From a virus, in IMG/VR virus record IMGVR_UViG_3300037502_002592, positions 1 through 40,643 of that record: 40,643 nt of DNA, one strand, 5' to 3'. This document shows positions 1 through 39,035 of this stretch, piece by piece (within the stretch, counting starts at the first letter, position 1; every line of letters starts with the position of its first letter). Made by a program: the position numbers and the translations under genes. The notes beneath the pieces were generated by a model that had not been told where the DNA came from, made no database searches, and saw only the letters and a list, made by a program, of their open reading frames with translations.

Positions 1-231
1 TCGCGACCGGGCCCATCCCTCCAAATCGCTCCAGTCTCCCGGCGCGGCACCGTCCATTGCATCCTCGGGGCACGAGAAAGACACGCCCTCCTGATACTCA
101 CACGTCCACACGGTCGGCTGCGATTTGGCGCGCAGCTTGTCGATCTCATCTGCGGCCATCCGCAGCAGATCATGCACAGCGGAACCGTGCATATCGTTCG
201 CTGTCCTGCGAAGATGATCCGTGTCGAGCAT
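1..231 (-). CDS. Small phage protein, 5' part of a gene cut by the contig ends
   Basis: ATG at 231 is preceded by AAAGG six bases upstream. Reading leftward gives MLDTDHLRRTAND..., a region with DEIDKLRAK typical of small helical phage proteins, then TVWTCEYQEGVSF. The gene leaves the window at base 1. Joined to its 3' part at 40454..40643 through the 126-bp repeat, it gives an intact 94-residue protein ending VAVVTI. No function is recognised. It is the third gene of the leftward operon that starts at 511. The last codons at bases 1..10 differ from the other copy (ARSR against ARVE). Confidence 0.8.
   Translation of the reverse strand, partial: MLDTDHLRRTANDMHGSAVHDLLRMAADEIDKLRAKSQPTVWTCEYQEGVSFSCPEDAMDGAAPGDWSDLEGWARSR
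11..136. repeat. Terminal direct repeat, left copy (126 bp)
   Basis: Positions 11..136 are identical to 40518..40643, the last 126 bases of the window. The ten bases before it (1..10) do not match those before the right copy. A repeat of this length exactly at both contig ends is most simply the overlap left when a circular or circularly permuted genome is assembled. A true short terminal repeat on packaged DNA is also possible. A coding frame runs through the join without interruption, which favours a closed molecule. Confidence 0.95.
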
Positions 232-242
232 GGCGGCCCTTT

Positions 243-359
243 CTATTCTCTGTCCAGTCTGCGCCACGGTGCCCTGGCCGAGCCGAAACCCCACCAGAGC
301 AGACCGACTGCGATCAGACCAAGAGCGGCCACGATCGCCAGCCTGATCTCATCGCTCAC
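243..359 (-). CDS. 38-residue single-pass membrane peptide
   Basis: GTG at 359 overlaps the TGA of the upstream gene (GTGA), a sign of translational coupling. The product reads VSDEIRLAIVAALGLIAVGLL and then WWGFGSARAPWRRLDRE: one hydrophobic helix (about residues 6-25) followed by a short basic tail. It ends with TAG eleven bases before the next start at 231. The function is unknown. Size and topology fit the tiny membrane peptides common in phage accessory operons. Confidence 0.65.
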   Translation of the reverse strand: MSDEIRLAIVAALGLIAVGLLWWGFGSARAPWRRLDRE

Positions 360-511
360 AGCGCCTCCACCAGCTTCACGAAATCGCGCCACGAACCAAC
401 GAAGCGCCGCGCCGCCGATCCGGCCGACTGGTAGTAATAAACGCCAGAGCGCTCGCGGCCGATGCCGTAACCCTTGGCGTTGGCGATCTGGATCAACTTG
501 GCTGCGCTCAT
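356..511 (-). CDS. Small hypothetical protein, first gene of the leftward operon
   Basis: 51 residues, MSAAKLIQIANAKGYGIGRE... ending FVKLVEAL. ATG 511 is chosen over an upstream in-frame start because GGGAGAG lies just before it. A good promoter (TTGCAA at 561..566, TATATA at 538..543, 17-bp spacer) reads into it. The YYYQSAGSAARRFVGSW segment looks like a small beta-rich fold. No family is recognised. Confidence 0.65.
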   Translation of the reverse strand: MSAAKLIQIANAKGYGIGRERSGVYYYQSAGSAARRFVGSWRDFVKLVEAL

Positions 512-537
512 GTCACTCTCCCGTGTCTGATGGTGAG

Positions 538-566
538 TATATAGCACCCTTCCAAATCATTTGCAA
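538..566 (-). promoter_or_regulatory. Leftward promoter of the accessory operon
   Basis: On the minus strand, TTGCAA (561..566) and TATATA (538..543) are separated by 17 bp, close to the sigma-70 consensus. Transcription would enter the gene at 511 and run through 359, 231, the joined ends and the genes at 40457..39743. Confidence 0.6.
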
Positions 567-578
567 TACCCAAAACAG

Positions 579-607
579 TTGTTTCACAAACAATCCCGTG
601 CTAGGTT
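579..607 (+). promoter_or_regulatory. Rightward promoter overlapped by a palindromic operator
   Basis: TTGTTT (579..584) and TAGGTT (602..607) lie 17 bp apart. The -35 box is the left arm of the perfect palindrome TTGTTT-CAC-AAACAA (579..593), so a dimeric repressor bound there would block this promoter and sit close to the divergent leftward one. The predicted start lies about 5 bases before ATG 619. Confidence 0.5.
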
Positions 608-618
608 ATGCAAATCGG

Positions 619-1188
619 ATGCTCAAGGGTTACGTGCTCCCGTCAAGGCGCGCGTCGGCATCCGCTCAACACACTGCGTTGGAGGCGGCCGGGGTGCTGG
701 TCAGGTACGAGGAAGGAAAGGCGGAAGGCTTCGATAACCTCCTGCGCTCGCTGCGCAAGGGGGATGGCGTGGCCGTGCGCCGTCTGTCCGATCTCGGGAA
801 CAACCGGCGCGAGCTGCGCGCCCGGCTCGATGCCATCCACAAGAAAAGCGGCTACCTCGTAGAGACGGCCACGAAGCGCGACAGCCGCAAGCCTGATGAT
901 CTGCGAGATATGATCTTCGATGCGGCCGACGATCTTGGGCAGAAAGGCAGAGACCCGGACGTGTCTCGCGCCAATGGCGCGAAGGGCGGCAGGCCTCGCA
1001 AGGATCGCGGCATCAGTGATGAGGAAGCCGAGCGGCATTGGTTCGACATGCGCCACGCGACCAATGAGGACGCGATCAAGTACATGGGCAAGTGGGACAT
1101 AAATGCCGCGTGGCGCAAGTGGGGCGCAAGCGGCAGGAAGTCCGGCCCGCGCCGCAAGGACTTTGCAAAACCGAAACCTAGAAGTTGA
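619..1188 (+). CDS. Serine-recombinase-like protein with degenerate active site and C-terminal DNA-binding region
   Basis: 189 residues from ATG 619; the open frame extends further upstream but runs across the promoter region. Residues 3-85 follow the resolvase N-terminal pattern: GYVxxS at 4-9, LEAAGV at 21-26, a LLRSLRKGDGVAVRRLSDLG block at 41-60, then LDAIHKKSGYLV. The catalytic arginines expected in GYVRVS and DRLGR are not there (Leu7; SDLGN). Ser9 is in the right place, but recombination seems unlikely. Residues 118-175 contain GAKGGRPRK followed by a helical stretch like the resolvase C-terminal helix-turn-helix. It may bind DNA as a regulator or accessory factor. It is the first gene of the rightward accessory operon and probably has a leaderless mRNA. 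Confidence 0.7.
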   Translation: MLKGYVLPSRRASASAQHTALEAAGVLVRYEEGKAEGFDNLLRSLRKGDGVAVRRLSDLGNNRRELRARLDAIHKKSGYLVETATKRDSRKPDDLRDMIFDAADDLGQKGRDPDVSRANGAKGGRPRKDRGISDEEAERHWFDMRHATNEDAIKYMGKWDINAAWRKWGASGRKSGPRRKDFAKPKPRS

Positions 1189-10188: not shown

Positions 10189-10803
10189 TTACCGGCGCTG
10201 CTGGGCGCGTTCGCTCATGGTCCCGAGCAGGTGCGTCGTCTTGTCGAGGCGGATGGTCACAGTCTCCCAGTCGCCATTGAGCGGGATCAACTCGACCGTC
10301 CCAGCTCGCGGGCGGTAGCGCCGGAAAAGCACCGAATTATCAGACACGACAAGCACCATGTCGCCGGGGTTGGGTTTCAGGTCGGGATCAATAATCACGC
10401 TGTCGCCGGGCTCGTAGTCTGGCGCGTTCGAGCGATCAGACACTGTGATTTGGAACGAGTGCGGACCGCACGGGAAATGCGTGTGGACCTTGTCGTAGGT
10501 GGCGCTGATCTTGCCGCGTGGATCAAAATTCGGGAGGTCGTCGAAAGGGATTTTGCTCACGAGCCGCCCCTGTAAAAGGCTTGCCCCCCCCGGGGCGTGG
10601 TCGTTCTGTCCTGTAAGTAACCAGTCCACCTTGACGCTAGTCAACTGGGCGATTCGTGCGAGCTTGTCGGCAGCTGGAAAATACCTTCCCCGTTCCCACT
10701 CAGACACAGTCTGCGCTGACACGCGCAACTCGCGCGCCATCTGCGGCCCTGACATCTGCGCTGCTTCCCGTGCCCGGCGCAAGCGCTCGCCAAAGGTTGC
10801 CAT
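10189..10803 (-). CDS. cI: CI-type phage repressor (XRE HTH plus S24-like domain)
   Basis: 204 residues. Residues 4-62 are an XRE helix-turn-helix (GPQMARELRVSAQTVSEWER as helices 2-3). The C-terminal half has the LexA/CI fold markers VSDRSNAPDYEPGDSVIID (Ser125 at the serine position) and GDMVLVVSDNSVLFRRYR, then VELIPLNGDW. The usual catalytic Lys position appears to be Arg161, and no Ala-Gly or Cys-Gly cleavage site is evident in the linker (res 65-100). Autocleavage is therefore doubtful, and induction may need another route. It should bind the four TTAAGG-N5-CCTTAA sites and maintain lysogeny. It is divergent from the Cro-like gene. Confidence 0.9.
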   Translation of the reverse strand: MATFGERLRRAREAAQMSGPQMARELRVSAQTVSEWERGRYFPAADKLARIAQLTSVKVDWLLTGQNDHAPGGASLLQGRLVSKIPFDDLPNFDPRGKISATYDKVHTHFPCGPHSFQITVSDRSNAPDYEPGDSVIIDPDLKPNPGDMVLVVSDNSVLFRRYRPRAGTVELIPLNGDWETVTIRLDKTTHLLGTMSERAQQRR

Positions 10804-14550: not shown

Positions 14551-14762
14551 CCCTCGCCCAGCTCCGTTCCGACGCCACCCTCTGCGCTGAGGCCGGCGTT
14601 GCCCTCACCGTCAGTCCCCACCTCGTGCTCGCGTTGCTGAACGAAAGGCTCTACCGTGACGAGCACTCTGATCGCCTACCGCACGCCCCCGCAGAGCGAG
14701 CGCAAAGCCGCTCAAGAGGCCAGGGAAGCCGGGCACCGCGCCTACCTGCCACGGGAGCCTAG
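14547..14762 (+). CDS. Small hypothetical protein overlapping the NusG-like gene
   Basis: 71 residues from ATG 14547. Residues 1-35 (LAQLRSDATLCAEAGVALTV, then SPHLVLALLNERLY) look like a genuine helical protein. The Arg/Ser-rich remainder overlaps the next gene in another frame for 107 bases and may be an uninformative tail. Confidence 0.5.
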   Translation: MTLAQLRSDATLCAEAGVALTVSPHLVLALLNERLYRDEHSDRLPHAPAERAQSRSRGQGSRAPRLPATGA

Positions 14763-15102
14763 GCAGACCACGAAGGGCGTCAGGCGCGTTCCTACGGCCA
14801 GGGGCTACGTGTTCTGCGAAGGCAAGCCAACAGACGCCGAGCACATCAAGGGCGCCATCGGTCCTGTTTCAAGGACAGAGCTGCGCCGCCTCTACGTCCG
14901 CACGTCCAAGACCCAGCGAAAGCACAAGTTCGCAGCAGGCGATCAGGTCAGTGTCAAACGGGGCCGGGATGCGGATCTTGCGGCTACCGTGACGGAGGTC
15001 ATTCGATCCGGATGGTATCGCGTGCGGGTCGTCATGTTTGGGAAGGCCCATAACATCAAAATCAAAGAGAGCGATCTCGCCCGCCTGCACCCGGGGACGT
15101 AA
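14656..15102 (+). CDS. NusG-like transcription factor (NGN plus KOW domains)
   Basis: 148 residues, GTG start at 14656 with AAAGG upstream. Residues 3-65 resemble a NusG N-terminal domain: YRTPPQSERKAAQEAREAGH, RAYLPREPRQ, ARGYVFCEG. Residues 90-145 are a KOW module: HKFAAGDQVSVKRGRDADLA, ATVTEVIRSGWYRVRVVM. NusG paralogues such as RfaH bind RNA polymerase and suppress pausing and termination. This is the last early gene, and a terminator and hairpins lie between it and the late operon, so a late-gene antitermination role is a reasonable inference. A NusG-type protein involved in phage exclusion is the alternative. Confidence 0.75.
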   Translation: MTSTLIAYRTPPQSERKAAQEAREAGHRAYLPREPRQTTKGVRRVPTARGYVFCEGKPTDAEHIKGAIGPVSRTELRRLYVRTSKTQRKHKFAAGDQVSVKRGRDADLAATVTEVIRSGWYRVRVVMFGKAHNIKIKESDLARLHPGT

Positions 15103-15103
15103 A

Positions 15104-15133
15104 AGCCCCGCCGGGTGAGTTTCCGGCGGGGCT
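15104..15133. terminator. Terminator between convergent genes
   Basis: Perfect 11-bp stem AGCCCCGCCGG / CCGGCGGGGCT with an 8-base loop. It is preceded by AAAA on the plus strand, i.e. followed by TTTT for minus-strand transcription. It lies directly after the NusG-like gene and downstream of the convergent membrane-regulator gene, so it should end the minus transcript strongly and the plus transcript perhaps partly. Confidence 0.8.
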
Positions 15134-15153: not shown

Positions 15154-16029
15154 CTAGTGGAGCGTAACAGCGACCTCTCTGCCTATACGGCGGCGGGACA
15201 CCATGCCCGCCGCTACGGCCTTTGAGACCCGCTTGCTGGCTTCCGATTTCACGACGCCCATTAGCTCAGCAATCTCGTTGTTGGTCAGCGCCCCCTTGGT
15301 GCGCAACAGTTTCCGAAGCTCCTCCAACTCAGCATCAGTGGTTCCGGCCGGAATGGTGAGGTCCGACGCGCGGGAAACAGTTGCGGAAACCGTCGCTTGC
15401 CAGGAAAACAGCGCCGTCGCCATCCAGACCAGCGCCCAAATTGCGACGTCGAGCCCGACCGCGAACGCCAACACCGAGCTTTTGCGGATGGTCTCAGCGG
15501 AAACCGTTCCAGCACTCGCCCATGCCCACGTCTCGCTGCCGAGATCACCAGCCGGGGCAGACCGCAACTCGCCCCGGAGTTTTTCGACGCGGGCCTCGAG
15601 GGCCTGGACGGTCTGAGCCTTGCCCTTACAGCTCGGGCCATTCCCAGACCTGCATTCAGCCAGCCAGTCCCCGCGCGCCCATTCTAGCCGCTGCATCGTG
15701 GCGGTGAGGTCAGACCGGACAAGTGCAGACATGTCCGCACTTGTCGCTTGACTGTGCTTGATCTCTCCTGTCCGGCCGACAACTGCCGGAAGCGAATACG
15801 CCAGTAACGCCACGAATGCGACGCACAACACTAGAGATAGAGACCGCAACCGGTAGGACCACGAGATGTGGATAAACACCGGGAGCAATGCCACGGCGCA
15901 CATGGCCACGATCATCGAGGCGCGCGTGTACGTTGACGCGCCCTCTGTTGCTTCCAGTCCGCCGAGGATTTGCAGGGAGAGAAGTGCGCCGGCACTCGCC
16001 AGCGCTGCTAAAGCTGCTAATGTCCGCAT
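15154..16029 (-). CDS. Four-helix membrane protein with periplasmic coiled coil and cytoplasmic winged helix
   Basis: 291 residues. Predicted transmembrane helices at about 3-25, 38-57, 64-85 and 188-210. The basic loop SYRLRS between helices 2 and 3 and the positive-inside rule put the N-terminus and the last 80 residues in the cytoplasm. Residues 86-187 would be periplasmic: a helical part with two cysteines (AECRSGNGPSCKG) and a coiled coil (QALEARVEKLRGELRS). The cytoplasmic tail has DAELEELRKLLRTKGALTNN and EIAELMGVVKSEASKRVSKA, then AGMVSRRRIGREVAV, a winged helix-turn-helix. This is the layout of a membrane-tethered transcription regulator or receptor. It is a lone minus-strand gene between early and late operons and could be expressed in lysogeny. 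No named family is recognised. Confidence 0.7.
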   Translation of the reverse strand: MRTLAALAALASAGALLSLQILGGLEATEGASTYTRASMIVAMCAVALLPVFIHISWSYRLRSLSLVLCVAFVALLAYSLPAVVGRTGEIKHSQATSADMSALVRSDLTATMQRLEWARGDWLAECRSGNGPSCKGKAQTVQALEARVEKLRGELRSAPAGDLGSETWAWASAGTVSAETIRKSSVLAFAVGLDVAIWALVWMATALFSWQATVSATVSRASDLTIPAGTTDAELEELRKLLRTKGALTNNEIAELMGVVKSEASKRVSKAVAAGMVSRRRIGREVAVTLH

Positions 16030-16417
16030 AGTCTGTCATCCTGTGACCGCAGGTTGATGGATGAGGGCTAGTAGTTCGGCGGCAACCGAATTATTAGCCC
16101 GCTAACGTAACACGTTGAATCTAAGCTGATTTGCCTAATCGGCAATGAATTTTTACACAGGGCTGTGCATTTGCTTGCGCCCGTGTTGCAAATCGGTGTA
16201 TGCAGCGAATCAGGATGAGCGTCGATACGCCCTGTCGCGGTCTGCGTGGAAGCGGCAGTGAGACGCCCCGGCGGAACCAAGCATTCCGCACCAATCCAGA
16301 AATGCGCCTACGCCGCTAACGGCCCCGCTACGCTTACTCTATGCGGGGCCACACTTCGCAGCAGTGTGTTGGGGCATCTGCAGCGTCAGTACTATCCCAC
16401 ATGATCCTGGCAGATTG
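16030..16417. promoter_or_regulatory. 388-bp late-operon leader with inverted repeats and hairpins
   Basis: No gene is visible. It is relatively AT-rich near 16080..16160 and holds two small dyads, TTGCC-TAATC-GGCAA (16131..16145) and CACAG-GG-CTGTG (16156..16167), which could be regulator sites for the divergent genes. At its right end are two adjacent hairpins, GGCCCCGC/GCGGGGCC (16321..16350) and CACACT/AGTGTG (16350..16368), without T-runs. The promoters of both the minus gene at 16029 and the rightward late genes should lie here. I cannot assign -35 and -10 boxes with confidence. Confidence 0.5.
16321..16368 (+). other. Tandem hairpins in the late leader
   Basis: The first is a perfect 8-bp stem with a 14-base loop (16321..16328 with 16343..16350). 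The second is a perfect 6-bp stem with a 7-base loop (16350..16355 with 16363..16368). They abut, 50 bases before the first late gene. They could be a pause or antitermination site for the NusG-like protein, or weak terminators. Confidence 0.45.
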
Positions 16418-17093: not shown

Positions 17094-18071
17094 ATGACCA
17101 CCGACTTTGATAAGCTGATCCCGCGCGCCAAGCAGGCCGGTTTCATCGCGACCATCACCGCAGCTGCCATCACCGCTCAGTTCGGCTGGCACCTTGGCCG
17201 GGGCATCCTTGAGCAAGTCAGCCTCGCAATCCTCCTGGCGCTGTGCACCGTGATCGTCGGTTATGCGCTCGTTTTTGCGTTTGCCGCCTATCGCCGGGGC
17301 CTGACCGTTGTCGGCCATGCCGCCGTTGCGCTGTTCGCAATTGGCGTCACCGTTGAGTTTCTTAGCCATACCGGGTTCACGGCGTCGAACAGAGACGCCA
17401 CCATTGCCCAAGCCAAGCTCCAGCAGACCGTCAGCACGCACAACATCGGTGACGTTGACCGCCTCTCCAAGAACGTGGATCGCCTGCAAGGCCGCCTTAA
17501 GATGGTCCCCGTCCGCAATGCCGACCAGGCACAGGCTGCCATAGACAACGCCATGGCCCATCGCTTCTGGAAACTGACCGCCGGGTGCACCGAGACCAAA
17601 GGGCCGCAGACCCGTGACTTCTGCAGCGCTTACGCCTCGGCTATTGCGGACAAGGCCGGCAGCATCGAAGCGCAGACCACGCGGGAAGAGCTGAAACAGG
17701 CAGAGGCCGAGCTTGCCAAGGCACGCCAAGCTGTCGCCAAGAGCAACGCCACCACCGCCGTTGCTGCTTCTCAGGGTGTGGTGCTCGCCTCGATCATGAC
17801 GGCATCAGAGACGCCGAACAGCTCCGCCGTGTTCTGGGCTGGTATCGGCATCAGCTCAATCCTGGCCCTTTTTGCGATCTCTGCTGGTGGCCTGCTCAAC
17901 TTCATCGCTTACGCCTTCGACAGCGTGGCCGGCGCAGTGGGCAGCACCACCAGCAAGGATGACACCAAGGCCCCGGCATACGCCGCGCAGTCCGTAAGGG
18001 ACCGCTGGCTCTCAACGCACATGATCCGCACCGATCATGGCCTCACGCCTAAGACGCTGCAGGTCGCCTAA
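17094..18071 (+). CDS. Membrane protein with periplasmic coiled coil
   Basis: 325 residues from ATG 17094 behind GGGGGAC. Hydrophobic helices at about 14-31, 38-62 and 70-88, then a long soluble part (90-250) with a coiled coil (DRLSKNVDRLQGRLK), two cysteines (AGCTETKGPQTRDFCSA) and a second coiled coil (EELKQAEAELAKARQAVAKS), then a last helix at about 258-285. The layout of three helices, a Cys-paired coiled coil and a fourth helix equals that of the minus-strand protein 15154..16029, although the sequences differ and this one lacks the winged helix. Candidates include a superinfection-exclusion or envelope-sensing function; no family is recognised. Confidence 0.7.
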   Translation: MTTDFDKLIPRAKQAGFIATITAAAITAQFGWHLGRGILEQVSLAILLALCTVIVGYALVFAFAAYRRGLTVVGHAAVALFAIGVTVEFLSHTGFTASNRDATIAQAKLQQTVSTHNIGDVDRLSKNVDRLQGRLKMVPVRNADQAQAAIDNAMAHRFWKLTAGCTETKGPQTRDFCSAYASAIADKAGSIEAQTTREELKQAEAELAKARQAVAKSNATTAVAASQGVVLASIMTASETPNSSAVFWAGIGISSILALFAISAGGLLNFIAYAFDSVAGAVGSTTSKDDTKAPAYAAQSVRDRWLSTHMIRTDHGLTPKTLQVA

Positions 18072-18107: not shown

Positions 18108-18488
18108 GTGAGAGGCCGGCCGACAGAGTACCGCCCCGAAATGTGCGACAAAGTTGTCGAGTGGGGAAGATTAGGAAAATCAAGAGCTTGGATGGCGGCA
18201 CAGCTTGACGTGTCGTATCGCACCTTCTGTAATTGGGAAGAGGCACACCCAGATTTTCTTCAGGCCTTGGAACGCGCAGAGATGTTGGCGCAGGCGCACT
18301 GGGAAGACCTAGGCCACGACAACATCAAGGACCGCGAGTTCAATTCCTCCGTATGGTCGCGCTCCATGGCTGCCCGCTTCCCCAATCAATGGCGTGAGAA
18401 GACCGCTATCGTTGGCGACAAAAACGAGCCGCCCGTGCAATTGACCGTCGTGACAGGTGTGGTTCGTGGCAGCACCGAAGATCGTTGA
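18108..18488 (+). CDS. terS: Small terminase subunit
   Basis: 126 residues, GTG start at 18108 with GGAG upstream. The N-terminal HTH has RPTEYRPEMCDKVVEWGRLG, KSRAWMAAQLDVSYRTFCNW; then EEAHPDFLQALERAEMLAQA and HWEDLGHDN and a beta-like end. This is the common phage small-terminase layout (DNA recognition, then oligomerisation). It lies directly before TerL, which overlaps its end. Confidence 0.85.
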   Translation: MRGRPTEYRPEMCDKVVEWGRLGKSRAWMAAQLDVSYRTFCNWEEAHPDFLQALERAEMLAQAHWEDLGHDNIKDREFNSSVWSRSMAARFPNQWREKTAIVGDKNEPPVQLTVVTGVVRGSTEDR

Positions 18489-19737
18489 TCTTGGCTACCG
18501 CGCCCGGCCTCAGTTCGTCCCGCTGCATGCACGTACGCAACGCTGGGCTTGCGTCGTAGCTCATCGCCGCGCCGGCAAGACCGTCGCGTGCTTGATGGAT
18601 CTCATCGACGCAGCACTGCGCGATACGAAGTCAGAACCACGGTATGGGTACGTCGCCCCGTACTACGCCCAAGCCAAAGATGTTGCTTGGTCCTACCTGA
18701 AGCGCTTCACGGCTCCGATCCCAGGCGCAGAGCACAACGAAAGCGAGCTTCGCGTTGATCTGCCAAACGGTGCCCGCATCCGCCTTTACGGCGCCGACAA
18801 CTACGACCGCATGCGCGGGCTCTACTTTGACGGCGTGGTCATCGATGAAGCCGGCGATATGGACCCGAGGGCTTGGCCTGAAGTCATCCGCCCGGCGCTT
18901 TCAGACCGCAAGGGGCACGCCCTGTTCATTGGCACCCCAAAAGGCACGAACCAGTTCTACGAGATCTTCCAGGACGCGCAGACCTCGCCCGATTGGCTCG
19001 CGCTGCAGCTCAAGGCCAGCGAAACCAAGCTGATCGACGCTGACGAGTTGGCTGATGCCCGGCAGGCGATGACCGAAGAGCAGTATGAGCAAGAGTACGA
19101 GTGCTCATTCAGCGCCGCGATCATCGGCAGCTACTACGGCAAGGACATTGCCGAGTTAGAACGGCAGGGCCGCATCACCAGCGTGCCGTGGGAACGGTCG
19201 TCACGCGTAAGCACCGGTTGGGATCTCGGCATCGATGACGCGACTGTGGTGTGGTTCTTCCAGTCCATCGGCCGCGAGATCCGGGTGATTGATTACTACG
19301 AGGTGACGAACCAGGGCCTTGACGAGACCGCCAAGCACGTTCTGTCCAAGCCTTATCTCTACGAGACGCACTATCTCCCGCACGACATCGAAATTCGCGA
19401 GATTATCAGCGCCAAAAGCCGGCGCGACACGCTGGAAAGTTTAGGCCTCAACCCGATCCAGCCCGGCGTGCGCAACGATCCTGTCGAGCGCGTCAACGCT
19501 GTCCGCATGATGCTCCCGCGCTGCGTGTTCGATGCGGACAAGTGCAAGCGCGGCCTTGAGGTGCTGAAGCACTACCGCCGCGAGTTCGACGAGAAGCGCA
19601 AGACGTTTCGCTCGACGCCCCTTCACGACTGGGCTTCGCACGGCGCCGACGCGTTCGGAGAGTTTGCAGTGAACTTCTCGCGGCAGGTAGCGCGCTCGAC
19701 TGCGCCACGCCGCGCCCGCATAGGAACCATCGCCTAG
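18466..19737 (+). CDS. terL: Terminase large subunit (packaging ATPase-nuclease)
   Basis: 423 residues from GTG 18466; GTG 18457 is also possible, but ACAGG is better spaced for 18466. The ATPase has Walker A AHRRAGKTVA and Walker B GVVIDEAGDM, and the coupling motif ALFIGTPKGTNQFYEIF. The C-terminal RNase H-like nuclease has GWDLGIDDATVVWFF (first Asp), IDYYEV and a late DWASHGADAFGEF carrying a final Asp. It packages DNA into the prohead from terS-bound DNA. All expected motor and nuclease parts are present. Confidence 0.95.
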   Translation: MAAPKIVDLGYRARPQFVPLHARTQRWACVVAHRRAGKTVACLMDLIDAALRDTKSEPRYGYVAPYYAQAKDVAWSYLKRFTAPIPGAEHNESELRVDLPNGARIRLYGADNYDRMRGLYFDGVVIDEAGDMDPRAWPEVIRPALSDRKGHALFIGTPKGTNQFYEIFQDAQTSPDWLALQLKASETKLIDADELADARQAMTEEQYEQEYECSFSAAIIGSYYGKDIAELERQGRITSVPWERSSRVSTGWDLGIDDATVVWFFQSIGREIRVIDYYEVTNQGLDETAKHVLSKPYLYETHYLPHDIEIREIISAKSRRDTLESLGLNPIQPGVRNDPVERVNAVRMMLPRCVFDADKCKRGLEVLKHYRREFDEKRKTFRSTPLHDWASHGADAFGEFAVNFSRQVARSTAPRRARIGTIA

Positions 19738-19738
19738 A

Positions 19739-22102
19739 ATGGAAACCTTCACCGACGCAGCCGCCAGCCAAGAGCCGGCAGCAGCGCCCATGGACGATTC
19801 AGAGCTGCTCAAGATCCTGCGCGAGGAAGAGCGGGACGCGACCTCGTATTACGACAGTGAGTTTGCGCAGGCGCAGGCGAGCGCCATGGCCCGCTACAAC
19901 GGCGAGCTTTACGGCGATGAGGTCGAGGGCCGGTCCAAGGTCGTCACGCACGACGTCGAGGACACCATCAACTGGATCATGCCGCACCTGCTGCGGACAT
20001 TCCTATCGTCTGACGAGCTGGTGACGGTCGAGAGCAAGGCGCAGGATCAGGCGCAGCCGGCGCTGATGCAGATGGGTGGCCCTCAGATGGCCGGCCCGAT
20101 GGCGCAGCCGATGCCGCCTCAGATGGGCGCGGGCTACGGGAGCCAGGCAGCCGACACGCAGTGCATCGGCGAATATCTGACGCATTGCTTCTTCGTCGAT
20201 AACCCCGGCGAGCGCATCATCCACGATTTTGCCTTCGACGGCATGCTGCAGCGGGTCGGCTGGCTGAAGGTGTCCTGGCAGGATGCGGAGGCTAAGCCGC
20301 CGCAGATCATCGAGGGGATGCCGGCCGATCAGCTGGGCAAATACATCGAGGACCCAGAATACGAGATCCTGTCCCAGTCCACAGAGGACGGGCAGACCTA
20401 CACGATTGAGATCCGACACACGCCGCGCATGGGCCGCGTCAGCGTCGAGAACGTGCCGCCGGAAGAGATCGCCTGGAGCCGTAACGCCCGCAGCGCCGCA
20501 GAAGCCGATTACATCCGCCGCAAGCGTGAAGTCTACGTTGCCGAGATTGCTCGCCTGTACCCCGACAAGGCCGAAGAGCTGCAGAGCCCGGACAGGTCGT
20601 GGAACAGCGGCGCCGACGACATGGAGACGGACACCGACCCGCGCCGGCACGCCCGATTCCCCGAAGAGAGCCAAGACTACAAGCGCCCCGGTGACCACTT
20701 CCGCCGCCGCAAGACCTATCTGATCGAGGAAGATGTCCGCATCGACTTCGATGGCGACGGCATCGTCGAGCTCCGCCACATCAAGCGCATGGGCGACGTG
20801 ATCCTCGAAAACGAGGCCGTTGAGCGTTCCGAACTGGTCTGCTGGTCCCCGATCCGCATCCCGCACCGTCTGGCGGGCCGCTCGGTCGCTGACACGATGA
20901 TCGACTTCCAGCGCATCCGCACGGTGCTGACCCGGCGTGCGCTCGACAGTCTGGCGCAGTCGCTCACGCAGCAAAAAGTGGTCAACACGCAGGCCGTTGG
21001 TGCCGACGACATTGATGGACTGCTGGATAACGACATTGGACACGTCGTGCGTGCCAAGGGCGATGTCCGCGCGGCGCTGATGCCCATCGAGACGCCGGAC
21101 GTGTCCGGACAAGCCTTGACGTGGCTTGAGTACACCGACCAAAAGCAAGAGCAGGCCAGCGGCGCCACGCGTCACAACCAGGGCATCGACCCTAAGGGCC
21201 TCACCAAGACCGCATCCGGCATGGACATGCTGCAGTCCGCCGGCATGACCCGCATCGAGAGCTATGCCCGCTGGCTCGGCTTGGCCTTGGAAGAGGTGTT
21301 CGAACACATCCTGCGTTTGGTGTCGGCGCACCAAGACCAGCCGCGCCTGATCAAGATCAAGGGCCGTCCGGTCACCATCGACCCGCGCTTGTGGTCCGAC
21401 GATATGCGCGTGTCCGTGCACGTCGGCCTAGGCGGAGAAACACGCGAGCGTAAGCTGTTCAATTTGAACCTGATCAAGCAAACGCAAGAGCAAATCCTGC
21501 TGCAGGCCGGTCCCGGCAATCCGCTGGTGTCGTTGGCAGAGTACCGCACGACGCTGCAGCGCATGGTCGAGACCATGGGGTTCAAGGACGCAAGCGCGTA
21601 CTTCAAAGAGATCCCGCCCGACTATCAGCCGCAGGAGCCCGGCGAAGACCCGAAGATGGCCGAGGCCAAGGCCAAGATGGAGTTGGAGCAGGCCAAGGCG
21701 CAGCAGGACGCGCAATTGCAGGCCGCCAAGCTGCAGGCTGAGCAGCAGATGCGGGCGCAGGAAGCGCAGGCGAAGCAGCAGATTGCCACGGCGGAACTGG
21801 CCGGCAAGCAGGAGATGGCCCGCGTTGATGCGGAGTTGCAGCGCGAGATTGCCGCACAGAAAGCCCGCTCAGAATACGAGATCGCCCAATTGCGCATTGC
21901 GGCCGAGCAGCAGATCGCGGCGCAGCGCATGGCCGCTGAGATGGATCTGGCCCGCTGGAAAGCCACCGAGGAAATGAAGCTCGCCCGCGAGAAGATGCGC
22001 ATGCAGGCCAAAGCCGCCAAGCCCAACGGGGCATCCGATGGCGCAATGACCGGCGGTGACGGCATCGACAGTTATCGGCCAGGAGGCTCGCTCAGTGCCT
22101 GA
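19739..22102 (+). CDS. Portal protein with long C-terminal coiled-coil barrel
   Basis: 787 residues, longer than simple portals. The central domain has RIPHRLAGRSVADTMIDFQR and ASGATRHNQGIDPKGLTKTA, signatures of the podovirus portal family related to P22/epsilon15/BPP-1-type phages. A Met/Gln/Pro-rich insertion lies at about 105-135. Residues 640-760 are a Gln/Ala/Lys heptad region (AEAKAKMELEQAKAQQDAQL and similar), predicted as a coiled-coil barrel reaching into the capsid. It forms the dodecameric ring for packaging and ejection. It starts one base after the terL stop. Confidence 0.9.
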   Translation: METFTDAAASQEPAAAPMDDSELLKILREEERDATSYYDSEFAQAQASAMARYNGELYGDEVEGRSKVVTHDVEDTINWIMPHLLRTFLSSDELVTVESKAQDQAQPALMQMGGPQMAGPMAQPMPPQMGAGYGSQAADTQCIGEYLTHCFFVDNPGERIIHDFAFDGMLQRVGWLKVSWQDAEAKPPQIIEGMPADQLGKYIEDPEYEILSQSTEDGQTYTIEIRHTPRMGRVSVENVPPEEIAWSRNARSAAEADYIRRKREVYVAEIARLYPDKAEELQSPDRSWNSGADDMETDTDPRRHARFPEESQDYKRPGDHFRRRKTYLIEEDVRIDFDGDGIVELRHIKRMGDVILENEAVERSELVCWSPIRIPHRLAGRSVADTMIDFQRIRTVLTRRALDSLAQSLTQQKVVNTQAVGADDIDGLLDNDIGHVVRAKGDVRAALMPIETPDVSGQALTWLEYTDQKQEQASGATRHNQGIDPKGLTKTASGMDMLQSAGMTRIESYARWLGLALEEVFEHILRLVSAHQDQPRLIKIKGRPVTIDPRLWSDDMRVSVHVGLGGETRERKLFNLNLIKQTQEQILLQAGPGNPLVSLAEYRTTLQRMVETMGFKDASAYFKEIPPDYQPQEPGEDPKMAEAKAKMELEQAKAQQDAQLQAAKLQAEQQMRAQEAQAKQQIATAELAGKQEMARVDAELQREIAAQKARSEYEIAQLRIAAEQQIAAQRMAAEMDLARWKATEEMKLAREKMRMQAKAAKPNGASDGAMTGGDGIDSYRPGGSLSA

Positions 22103-37761: not shown

Positions 37762-38307
37762 ATGGAGCTTTGTGGTTACCGCCTCGTTGATACGCAAAAT
37801 AGCGTCATCGCAGAATGGGGCGGTACGCTGGGCCAGTGCCCCGGCATACCAAACCCGCTTTTCCTGCCTAATGGCGACCACGTGCACGCCCCCAGCCTCG
37901 ATACGGATTACGGCGGGTACAGGCTTCTGCCGATTATGCTGGGCAGGTCGCTGGATGATGAGAAAACAATAGCCATTGCAAAAATTGATGCTGACGCGGA
38001 AACGGCACGCCTCAAATACATCACGGCTGGCGCGGGTCAGGCTCTTGAGTATCAAGAGGCGGCGGAGGAAGCCGCTCGCTATATCGCGACAGGCGGCGCG
38101 GGAGCGTATCCGATGCTGCAAGCCTCTGTCGATGCTGGCGAGGCGCCGGACTTGGCCACGGCGGCGGCGCTTATCGGGGCGCGAGAAAACGCTTGGGCCA
38201 CTATCGGTGCGAACATCCGGCGGCTGCGACTGACGGCAAAGCGGGCAGTGGATGCGGCGACCACCGTTGAGCAGGTGCAAGCGGCAGCGCAGGTGACGTG
38301 GCCATGA
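37762..38307 (+). CDS. Tail fibre assembly/chaperone-type protein
   Basis: 181 residues from ATG 37762, one base after the adhesin stop. The N-terminal half (CPGIPNPLFLPNGDHVHAPS, LDTDYGGYRLLPIMLG) and a helical second half (DADAETARLKYITAGAGQAL, EYQEAAEEAARYIATGG) match fibre-assembly and DUF4376-like proteins that follow adhesin genes. Its role in folding or trimerising the fibre is inferred. Confidence 0.6.
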   Translation: MELCGYRLVDTQNSVIAEWGGTLGQCPGIPNPLFLPNGDHVHAPSLDTDYGGYRLLPIMLGRSLDDEKTIAIAKIDADAETARLKYITAGAGQALEYQEAAEEAARYIATGGAGAYPMLQASVDAGEAPDLATAAALIGARENAWATIGANIRRLRLTAKRAVDAATTVEQVQAAAQVTWP

Positions 38308-39035
38308 AGCTGTCCAGCGCTGGCCTTGACCTGATTTGCCAGTTCGAAGGCTACCATAAGGCGTTGCCTGACGGGCGCTGCATTGCCTATCGCTGCCCCG
38401 CCAACGTTCTGACAATTGGCTGGGGATGCACAGAAGGCGTCAAGGAGGGGATGATCTGGACGCGGGAGGAAGCGCAGGTTGCGCTCCGGCGCGAGCTGGC
38501 CAAGTTCGAGGCGGGCGTGATCCGGCTTACTACCGTGCCGCTCAACCAAAACCAATTCGATGCGCTAGTAAGCTTCACCTTCAACGTGGGGCTTGGCGCG
38601 TTCGAACGTTCGACGCTTCGGAAGCGGTTGAACGCGGGCGACTATCGCGGCGCGGCGTCGTCTTTTAAGCTATGGAACAAGGGCGGCGGCCGGGTGCTGC
38701 CGGGGCTCGTTAACCGGCGTGCCCGCGAGGCGACTCTGTTCCTGACGCCCATGGACGAGCCGTCAGAGCCAGACATGCCGCAGGCGGTAGAGCCGAGCGC
38801 GGAGCCAGTGGGCAAACCAACTGTTGCCGTGGCCGCTGCCTCGAGCGGGGCAGTGATCCCAGCTGTTCCGGCGCTGCTCACCGACAACGTGGCTGCCGCA
38901 TCGAGCTGGCAGGCGGCAGGAGACCAGATCGCGGGGCTGATTAAATGGGCTGTCGCATCGCCCTTGGCGCTGTTGATCATCGCAGCCACGGCGGCGCTGC
39001 TGTTCCTGCCGCGACTGATCGGGGGGCGAGCATGA
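38304..39035 (+). CDS. GH24 lysozyme (endolysin) with a C-terminal membrane anchor
   Basis: 243 residues from ATG 38304, overlapping the previous stop, with AGGTG at a good distance; GTG 38298 is too close to it. The GH24 core has Glu15 in FEGYHK, Cys31 in YRCPANVLTIGWG and Thr37, the E-C-T triad variant seen in many prophage lysozymes, then NQNQFDALVSFTFNVGLGAF and NRRAREATLFL. A linker rich in Pro, Glu and Ala (res 150-220) leads to a helix at about 215-238 (ASPLALLIIAATAALLFLP). It cleaves murein glycan. The tail anchor would hold it in the membrane until lysis. No signal peptide. Confidence 0.9.
   Translation: MKLSSAGLDLICQFEGYHKALPDGRCIAYRCPANVLTIGWGCTEGVKEGMIWTREEAQVALRRELAKFEAGVIRLTTVPLNQNQFDALVSFTFNVGLGAFERSTLRKRLNAGDYRGAASSFKLWNKGGGRVLPGLVNRRAREATLFLTPMDEPSEPDMPQAVEPSAEPVGKPTVAVAAASSGAVIPAVPALLTDNVAAASSWQAAGDQIAGLIKWAVASPLALLIIAATAALLFLPRLIGGRA

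Follow-up and report, generated by a model that had tools for sequence, protein, structure and literature searches.

A phage gene for a predicted membrane-anchored winged-helix protein, possibly a transmembrane transcription regulator, beside a conserved divergent control region

Both bacteria and archaea possess one-component regulators that are bound to the membrane, and those of the ToxR type carry an OmpR-like DNA-binding domain at the N-terminus. The helix-turn-helix (HTH) of BcrR is N-terminal as well, and we know of no periplasmic coiled coil in this protein. Among phage proteins, p16.7 of phi29 is a membrane protein with a coiled coil and a C-terminal DNA-binding domain; it has a single transmembrane (TM) helix and a homeodomain-like fold, and it is a replication organiser of a Gram-positive phage. 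A survey of transmembrane transcription regulators (TTRs), covering ToxR, TcpP and CadC, reports that most of them are single-pass proteins, and its main text nowhere uses the word "phage" (PMC10269533). A periplasmic cysteine pair in TcpP is described in PMC7017273. HigX of Caulobacter crescentus, whose four TM helices are N-terminal and whose LytTR domain is at the C-terminus, in the cytoplasm, is membrane-associated and binds promoters according to ChIP-Seq (PMC13384398); the same paper presents BcrR of Enterococcus as a permanently membrane-anchored one-component regulator that has a four-helix membrane domain and senses bacitracin. Our search of the freely accessible literature found no phage TTR.

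The window, that is the whole stretch of DNA analysed here, is the IMG/VR virus record IMGVR_UViG_3300037502_002592 (40,643 bases). The gene under study occupies 15154..16029 on the minus strand, an open frame with an ATG start encoding 291 amino acids, and its full-length relatives in five viral contigs are 64-76% identical. With a whole-gene pairwise dN/dS of 0.13-0.23 (five homologues), it is a real gene; purifying selection acts on all of its regions. The order in the window is early genes (+), a NusG-like gene (+), the gene under study (-), a leader, the gene 17094-18071 (+), and then TerS (18108-18488), TerL (18457-19737) and the portal (19739-22102), in agreement with the initial annotation, which had described a solitary minus-strand gene between early and late operons. 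The convergent neighbour (14656..15102, +; phrog_6386, E 2e-9; NusG/KOW) is a short phage NusG-like protein that ends the early operon, a candidate late antiterminator. Between the two genes, 20 bp past the stop codon of the minus-strand gene, an 11-bp stem-loop was read from the sequence (AGCCCCGCCGG/CCGGCGGGGCT, 15104..15133, -), and it is likely to be the terminator of both.

Close viral relatives have the same gene order as far as their contigs reach, their neighbours having been profiled in part. In prophage L012 the early and terminase genes lie on one strand and the relative on the opposite one; prophage L092 follows the same plan, with TerL downstream, and in L030, which holds a distant member, the gene precedes TerL and portal on the other strand. 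These three prophages thus agree with the close phages in having the gene antiparallel to the terminase operon and ahead of it. L093 retains the convergent NusG-like gene, but no terminase was found on its short contig. The phage is temperate, as a CI-like repressor with an S24/UmuD-like part is encoded at 10189-10803 (-), and the presence of this CI/S24-type repressor led us to reject an immunity-repressor reading of the 291-aa protein. A holin or lysis-protein reading is unlikely too, given the endolysin at 38298-39035 and the winged helix-turn-helix (wHTH) described below. At the left end of the window, the 338-aa ORF 172-1188 (+) gave only a weak resolvase-like match, below cut-off.

Exactly four hydrophobic segments were found in the protein by Kyte-Doolittle hydropathy, as had been claimed before: residues 4-22 (15964..16020, hydropathy 2.01), 37-55 (15865..15921, 2.34), 66-84 (15778..15834, 2.57) and 186-204 (15418..15474, 2.14), all coordinates being on the minus strand. 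They are also conserved in the relatives, where a TTR needs at least one transmembrane segment. Segments 2 and 3 are joined by a short basic loop (2 K/R, 0 D/E), while the one that joins segments 1 and 2 has only 1 K/R, a pattern found likewise in most of 13 family members; by the positive-inside rule this would place both termini inside and residues 86-185 outside, so that the wHTH would be on the cytoplasmic side, as previously reasoned from the same rule. The full-length AlphaFold2 (AF2) model is poor as a whole (pLDDT 56, pTM 0.26); helices 62-126 and 132-157, the part modelled best (pLDDT 72-85 over residues 101-150), form a hairpin in which TM helix 3 is predicted to extend into the outer coiled coil. 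This hairpin falls in the predicted periplasmic part (residues 86-185; 15475..15774, -), matching the coiled-coil portion of about 100 residues with two cysteines that had been proposed. Both Cys126 and Cys134, which are invariant in 8 aligned relatives and are the only two invariant Cys columns in a highly diverged set of 12 members, are located at the hairpin tip of this overall poor model, which fits a disulfide with a structural role no less well than a redox switch.

At the C-terminus, a winged-helix DNA-binding domain is predicted at residues 229-291 (15157..15345, -), on the presumed cytoplasmic side. The full-length model already has the wHTH order of elements at residues 232-290, and this is its only part that was informative in Foldseek. 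When residues 220-291 were modelled alone, with homologues, AF2 returned an H-H-H-wing arrangement with pLDDT 81, and the best Foldseek matches of this model in the PDB were repressors of the ArsR/MarR type (CadC, SmtB, MarR), with TM-scores up to 0.78 on the query and E about 2e-3; ESCRT-II and ribosomal proteins were also among the fold matches. The wHTH claimed in the initial annotation is thus recovered by structure prediction, and it is on AF2 and Foldseek that the recognition of a DNA-binding domain, the other property of a TTR, depends, the sequence matches being below the Pfam cut-offs. The best Pfam profiles, DUF7343 and MarR_2 (E 1e-4 to 3e-4 for residues 237-290), cover the wHTH only, and neither for DUF7343 (PF24034; 22.1 vs 27.6 bits) nor for the MarR family (PF12802/PF01047; 21.2 bits against 27, and 18 bits against 24.6) does the score reach the curated cut-off. 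A search of PDB sequences gave only a weak MarR match. No PHROGs model matched below E 2e-3, and what matched did so in the wHTH region only; NCBIfam matches were far under their cut-offs, and no LytTR domain was found by Pfam, a winged helix standing in its place. That the protein belongs to no named phage family, as had been guessed, is in line with the lack of any Pfam, PHROGs or NCBIfam model at threshold.

Phages whose versions of the protein are 24-36% different nevertheless have conserved DNA in the stretch that separates the gene from the late operon. An alignment of 5 phages, together with a palindrome scan, delimited a conserved divergent control region at 16126..16203, a candidate operator whose pattern occurs once in the window. 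In this region inverted copies of TGATTTG/CAAATC flank an imperfect central palindrome (TACACAGGGCTGTGCA, 16154-16169), and the block TGATTTGCCTAAYCGNMAATGA has one occurrence in the window and no chance match in shuffles; throughout the viral collection the same block was found in only four contigs, each of which carries the wHTH gene. Three phages have TGCACAGNNCTGTGCA as the central palindrome, whereas L008 has another sequence there and L007 a degenerate one. As these last two have almost the same wHTH and yet differ in the palindrome, the latter is a weak operator candidate and was dropped as a proven operator; the TGATTTG repeats appear to be the better candidate. Palindromes of single sequences are in any case weak, being reached by shuffles in 15 to 208 of 300. 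By eye, a promoter-like TTGCGC-N16-TGTATG can be read on the plus strand of the region; a sigma-70 scan found no consensus. Concerning L008, a small gene that looks RHH-like by eye (2116-2316, -) lies between the homologue and the control region, and a terminator-like site, GGCGATTTCGCC-T8, is present at about 2550.

The divergent leader, in which small dyads had been noticed, holds conserved hairpins. Hairpin A (16065..16100, +; 14 bp), between the start codon and the control region, shows strong covariation: in the plus sense five distinct sequences give 61 Watson-Crick, 8 G-T and 0 A-C pairs, wobble pairs being found in this sense only, and L008 keeps the hairpin with an unrelated sequence. 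Both features suggest that the hairpin belongs to an RNA transcribed towards the late genes, even though it is upstream of the guessed late promoter; one possibility is read-through from the NusG-like operon past the terminator-like stem-loop. Farther on, hairpins D (16232-16258), B (16271-16289) and C (16321-16350) make up a late leader (16232..16350, +) with the conserved loops TGCGTGGA, GCAT and TACGCNTA. In a covariation set of five sequences, two of which are near-duplicates, three helices have 95.6% paired cells and 11 double-change pairs, against 5.3 in shuffles, and the pairing collapses after a slide of one column. Folding energy alone is unconvincing for D-B-C (z -1.4 to -2.3), while the covariation is convincing. 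On the leader, Rfam matches were at chance level only; this leader could be an antitermination or protein-binding RNA.

Relatives of the protein were found in viral contigs, five at full length and a sixth with a truncated copy, and more of them in genomes of Hyphomicrobiales; tblastn with the 291-aa protein and related proteins gave no match in the 50,697 records of phages and the 72,556 of plasmids searched. A class-wide search with profile A4 mostly returned matches through the wHTH alone. The L012 locus, a prophage of Hyphomicrobiaceae, matches residues 3-206 only, and in distant relatives from Hyphomicrobiales the membrane half and the Cys pair are kept while the C-terminal HTH is of at least 4 different types. 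The MarR-like wHTH is present in the window, the viral contigs, L015 and L018; a short end terminating in TTAWRRLKA or similar, a putative HTH by eye that no Pfam model matches, in L012, L092 and L093; a homeodomain-like HTH_23 in L014, L017 and L094; and a PoxD5/primase-type wHTH in L019 and in the chromosomal loci, where it was recognised in 30 of the 30 read (by eye, with a Pfam match on L068). Wherever a profile matches the C-terminal end of a relative, the domain is a DNA-binding one. A membrane half kept while the HTH end swaps is what would be expected if the end serves DNA binding, and we consider this swap the best evidence for membrane-anchored DNA binding. Modular exchange is also apparent between L001 and L008, where a nearly identical wHTH (dN 0.02) is joined to membrane halves with dN about 0.2.

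The chromosomal family (L035-L064, L065-L076) consists of three TM helices, a Cys-pair coiled coil, a further TM helix and the PoxD5/primase-type winged helix, and Pfam holds no name for it at full length. The related profile A8 matches in 51 of 397 Hyphomicrobiales genomes, often with several copies per genome, and several of these relatives lie in conserved neighbourhoods (NAD kinase-like, catalase-like), the membrane half being conserved in genes outside recognisable prophages. In L066 (4752-10687), which appears to be part of a conjugative element, one member is flanked by a TraG-type coupling protein on one side and a MobA/VirD2-type relaxase on the other, and relatives in L027 and L028 are beside integrases. 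Since relatives in other alphaproteobacterial phages and chromosomes share the membrane half and vary in the DNA-binding end, the protein seems to represent a family of membrane-bound regulators that has not been described before.

The same contexts raise the question of whether the protein could instead be a membrane tether of phage or element DNA that serves its replication, segregation, packaging or transfer. The anchoring of DNA at the membrane by p16.7 of phi29 would be a parallel, and the relatives' surroundings in L066, L027, L028 and the chromosomes have DNA handling in common and not late genes, to which the chromosomal and conjugative-element members are not adjacent; one of the C-terminal classes resembles the DNA-binding end of phage primases. 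The phage gene, however, is antiparallel to the early and late operons, outside the replication module and beside the conserved divergent control region, and we regard a tether as unlikely.

A second protein with the same membrane layout is encoded by the first long gene of the late operon (17094..18071, +), composed of three TM helices, a Cys-pair coiled coil and a fourth TM helix, without an HTH. Profile-profile comparison with the wHTH protein gave 96% probability and, counted as a single comparison, E about 1e-9, with an alignment that spans TM2 and TM3 and enters the coiled coil. Scores of this kind can be inflated by coiled coils, but the 62-column core is here mostly membrane. The window, L002, L007-L010, L092 and L093 each contain relatives of both genes, the pair recurring in a separate prophage, and no relative of 17094-18071 was found at L012 or L030. 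We infer from this co-occurrence that the two products may form a functional pair. It should be noted that the initial annotation mentioned neither this protein, nor the adjoining NusG-like gene, nor the chromosomal occurrence of the family.

A solitary antiparallel gene with its own terminator-like stem-loop is typical of genes expressed by prophages, and a four-helix membrane protein diverging fast with modular recombination would also suit lysogenic conversion or superinfection exclusion, the wHTH then only autoregulating its own gene. This explanation is distinctly unlikely in our judgement, the membrane half being found in chromosomal genes outside recognisable prophages, with the wider family in the 51 genomes mentioned above, and the HTH-less paralogue belonging to the late operon. 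Very improbable is a role of the wHTH as a protein-protein or RNA-binding module in a membrane assembly or lysis-timing factor, for which the ESCRT-II and ribosomal fold matches and the existence of two related membrane proteins, the late one without HTH, could be cited, because the endolysin gene is far off and the profile-matched ends of the relatives are DNA-binding domains.

We consider it highly probable that the 291-aa product is some kind of DNA-binding protein anchored in the membrane, and for a phage-encoded transmembrane transcription regulator in particular we judge the chances to be evenly balanced. The earlier proposal of a membrane-tethered regulator stands as far as its design is concerned, with the layout, the wHTH, the divergent position and the membrane half kept with swapped ends all agreeing; as to its function, a regulator is the best explanation of these features, while the sensing of superinfection, stress or redox state that was also proposed is conjectural. 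If the protein is such a regulator, helices 1-3 together with helix 4 would anchor it in the inner membrane. Between helices 3 and 4 there would be a helical hairpin in the periplasm, with a disulfide from Cys126 to Cys134 probably closing the tip, and the MarR/ArsR-like winged helix would face the cytoplasm and bind DNA as a dimer. Its most likely target would be 16126-16203, which is common to its own promoter and the late-operon leader, and therefore the protein could set its own level and bias the entry into late gene expression from the membrane. Through the coiled coil, the HTH-less protein, as the first product of the late operon, may associate with the regulator and modify its activity.

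A complete scheme, in which a disulfide-tipped envelope sensor with a wHTH at a divergent promoter runs a late-gene switch from the membrane, the HTH-less paralogue associates with it there and completes a feedback loop, and this membrane module, its DNA-binding ends being exchangeable, is also at work in conjugative elements and on Hyphomicrobiales chromosomes, is tentative and, taken as a whole, rather doubtful. If the regulator reading is right, a temperate phage would sense the state of the envelope directly, and no soluble messenger would be needed to pass this information on to its late genes. The family, named in no library, combines one Cys-pair membrane module with several unrelated DNA-binding ends and occurs in phages and prophages, in a conjugative element and on Hyphomicrobiales chromosomes, and the divergent pair with and without HTH offers a direct genetic test.

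Compared with the systems described at the outset, the protein is not of the phi29 p16.7 type, which combines a homeodomain-like fold with a single N-terminal TM helix, as it has a predicted wHTH and four TM segments. Like the TTRs it would combine, in one polypeptide, membrane helices with a DNA-binding domain, here predicted and probably cytoplasmic, and it differs from them in having four helices and a C-terminal DNA-binding domain. Its Cys126/Cys134 pair resembles the periplasmic one of TcpP (PMC7017273), and its four-helix membrane part that of BcrR (PMC13384398). HigX is likewise alphaproteobacterial and has four TM helices and a C-terminal DNA-binding domain, which in our protein is predicted; unlike it, HigX has LytTR and not a wHTH, has no apparent periplasmic domain and is chromosomal (PMC13384398). 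The outer coiled coil, the Cys pair, the winged helix and the phage setting therefore set the 291-aa protein apart from both the TTRs and HigX.
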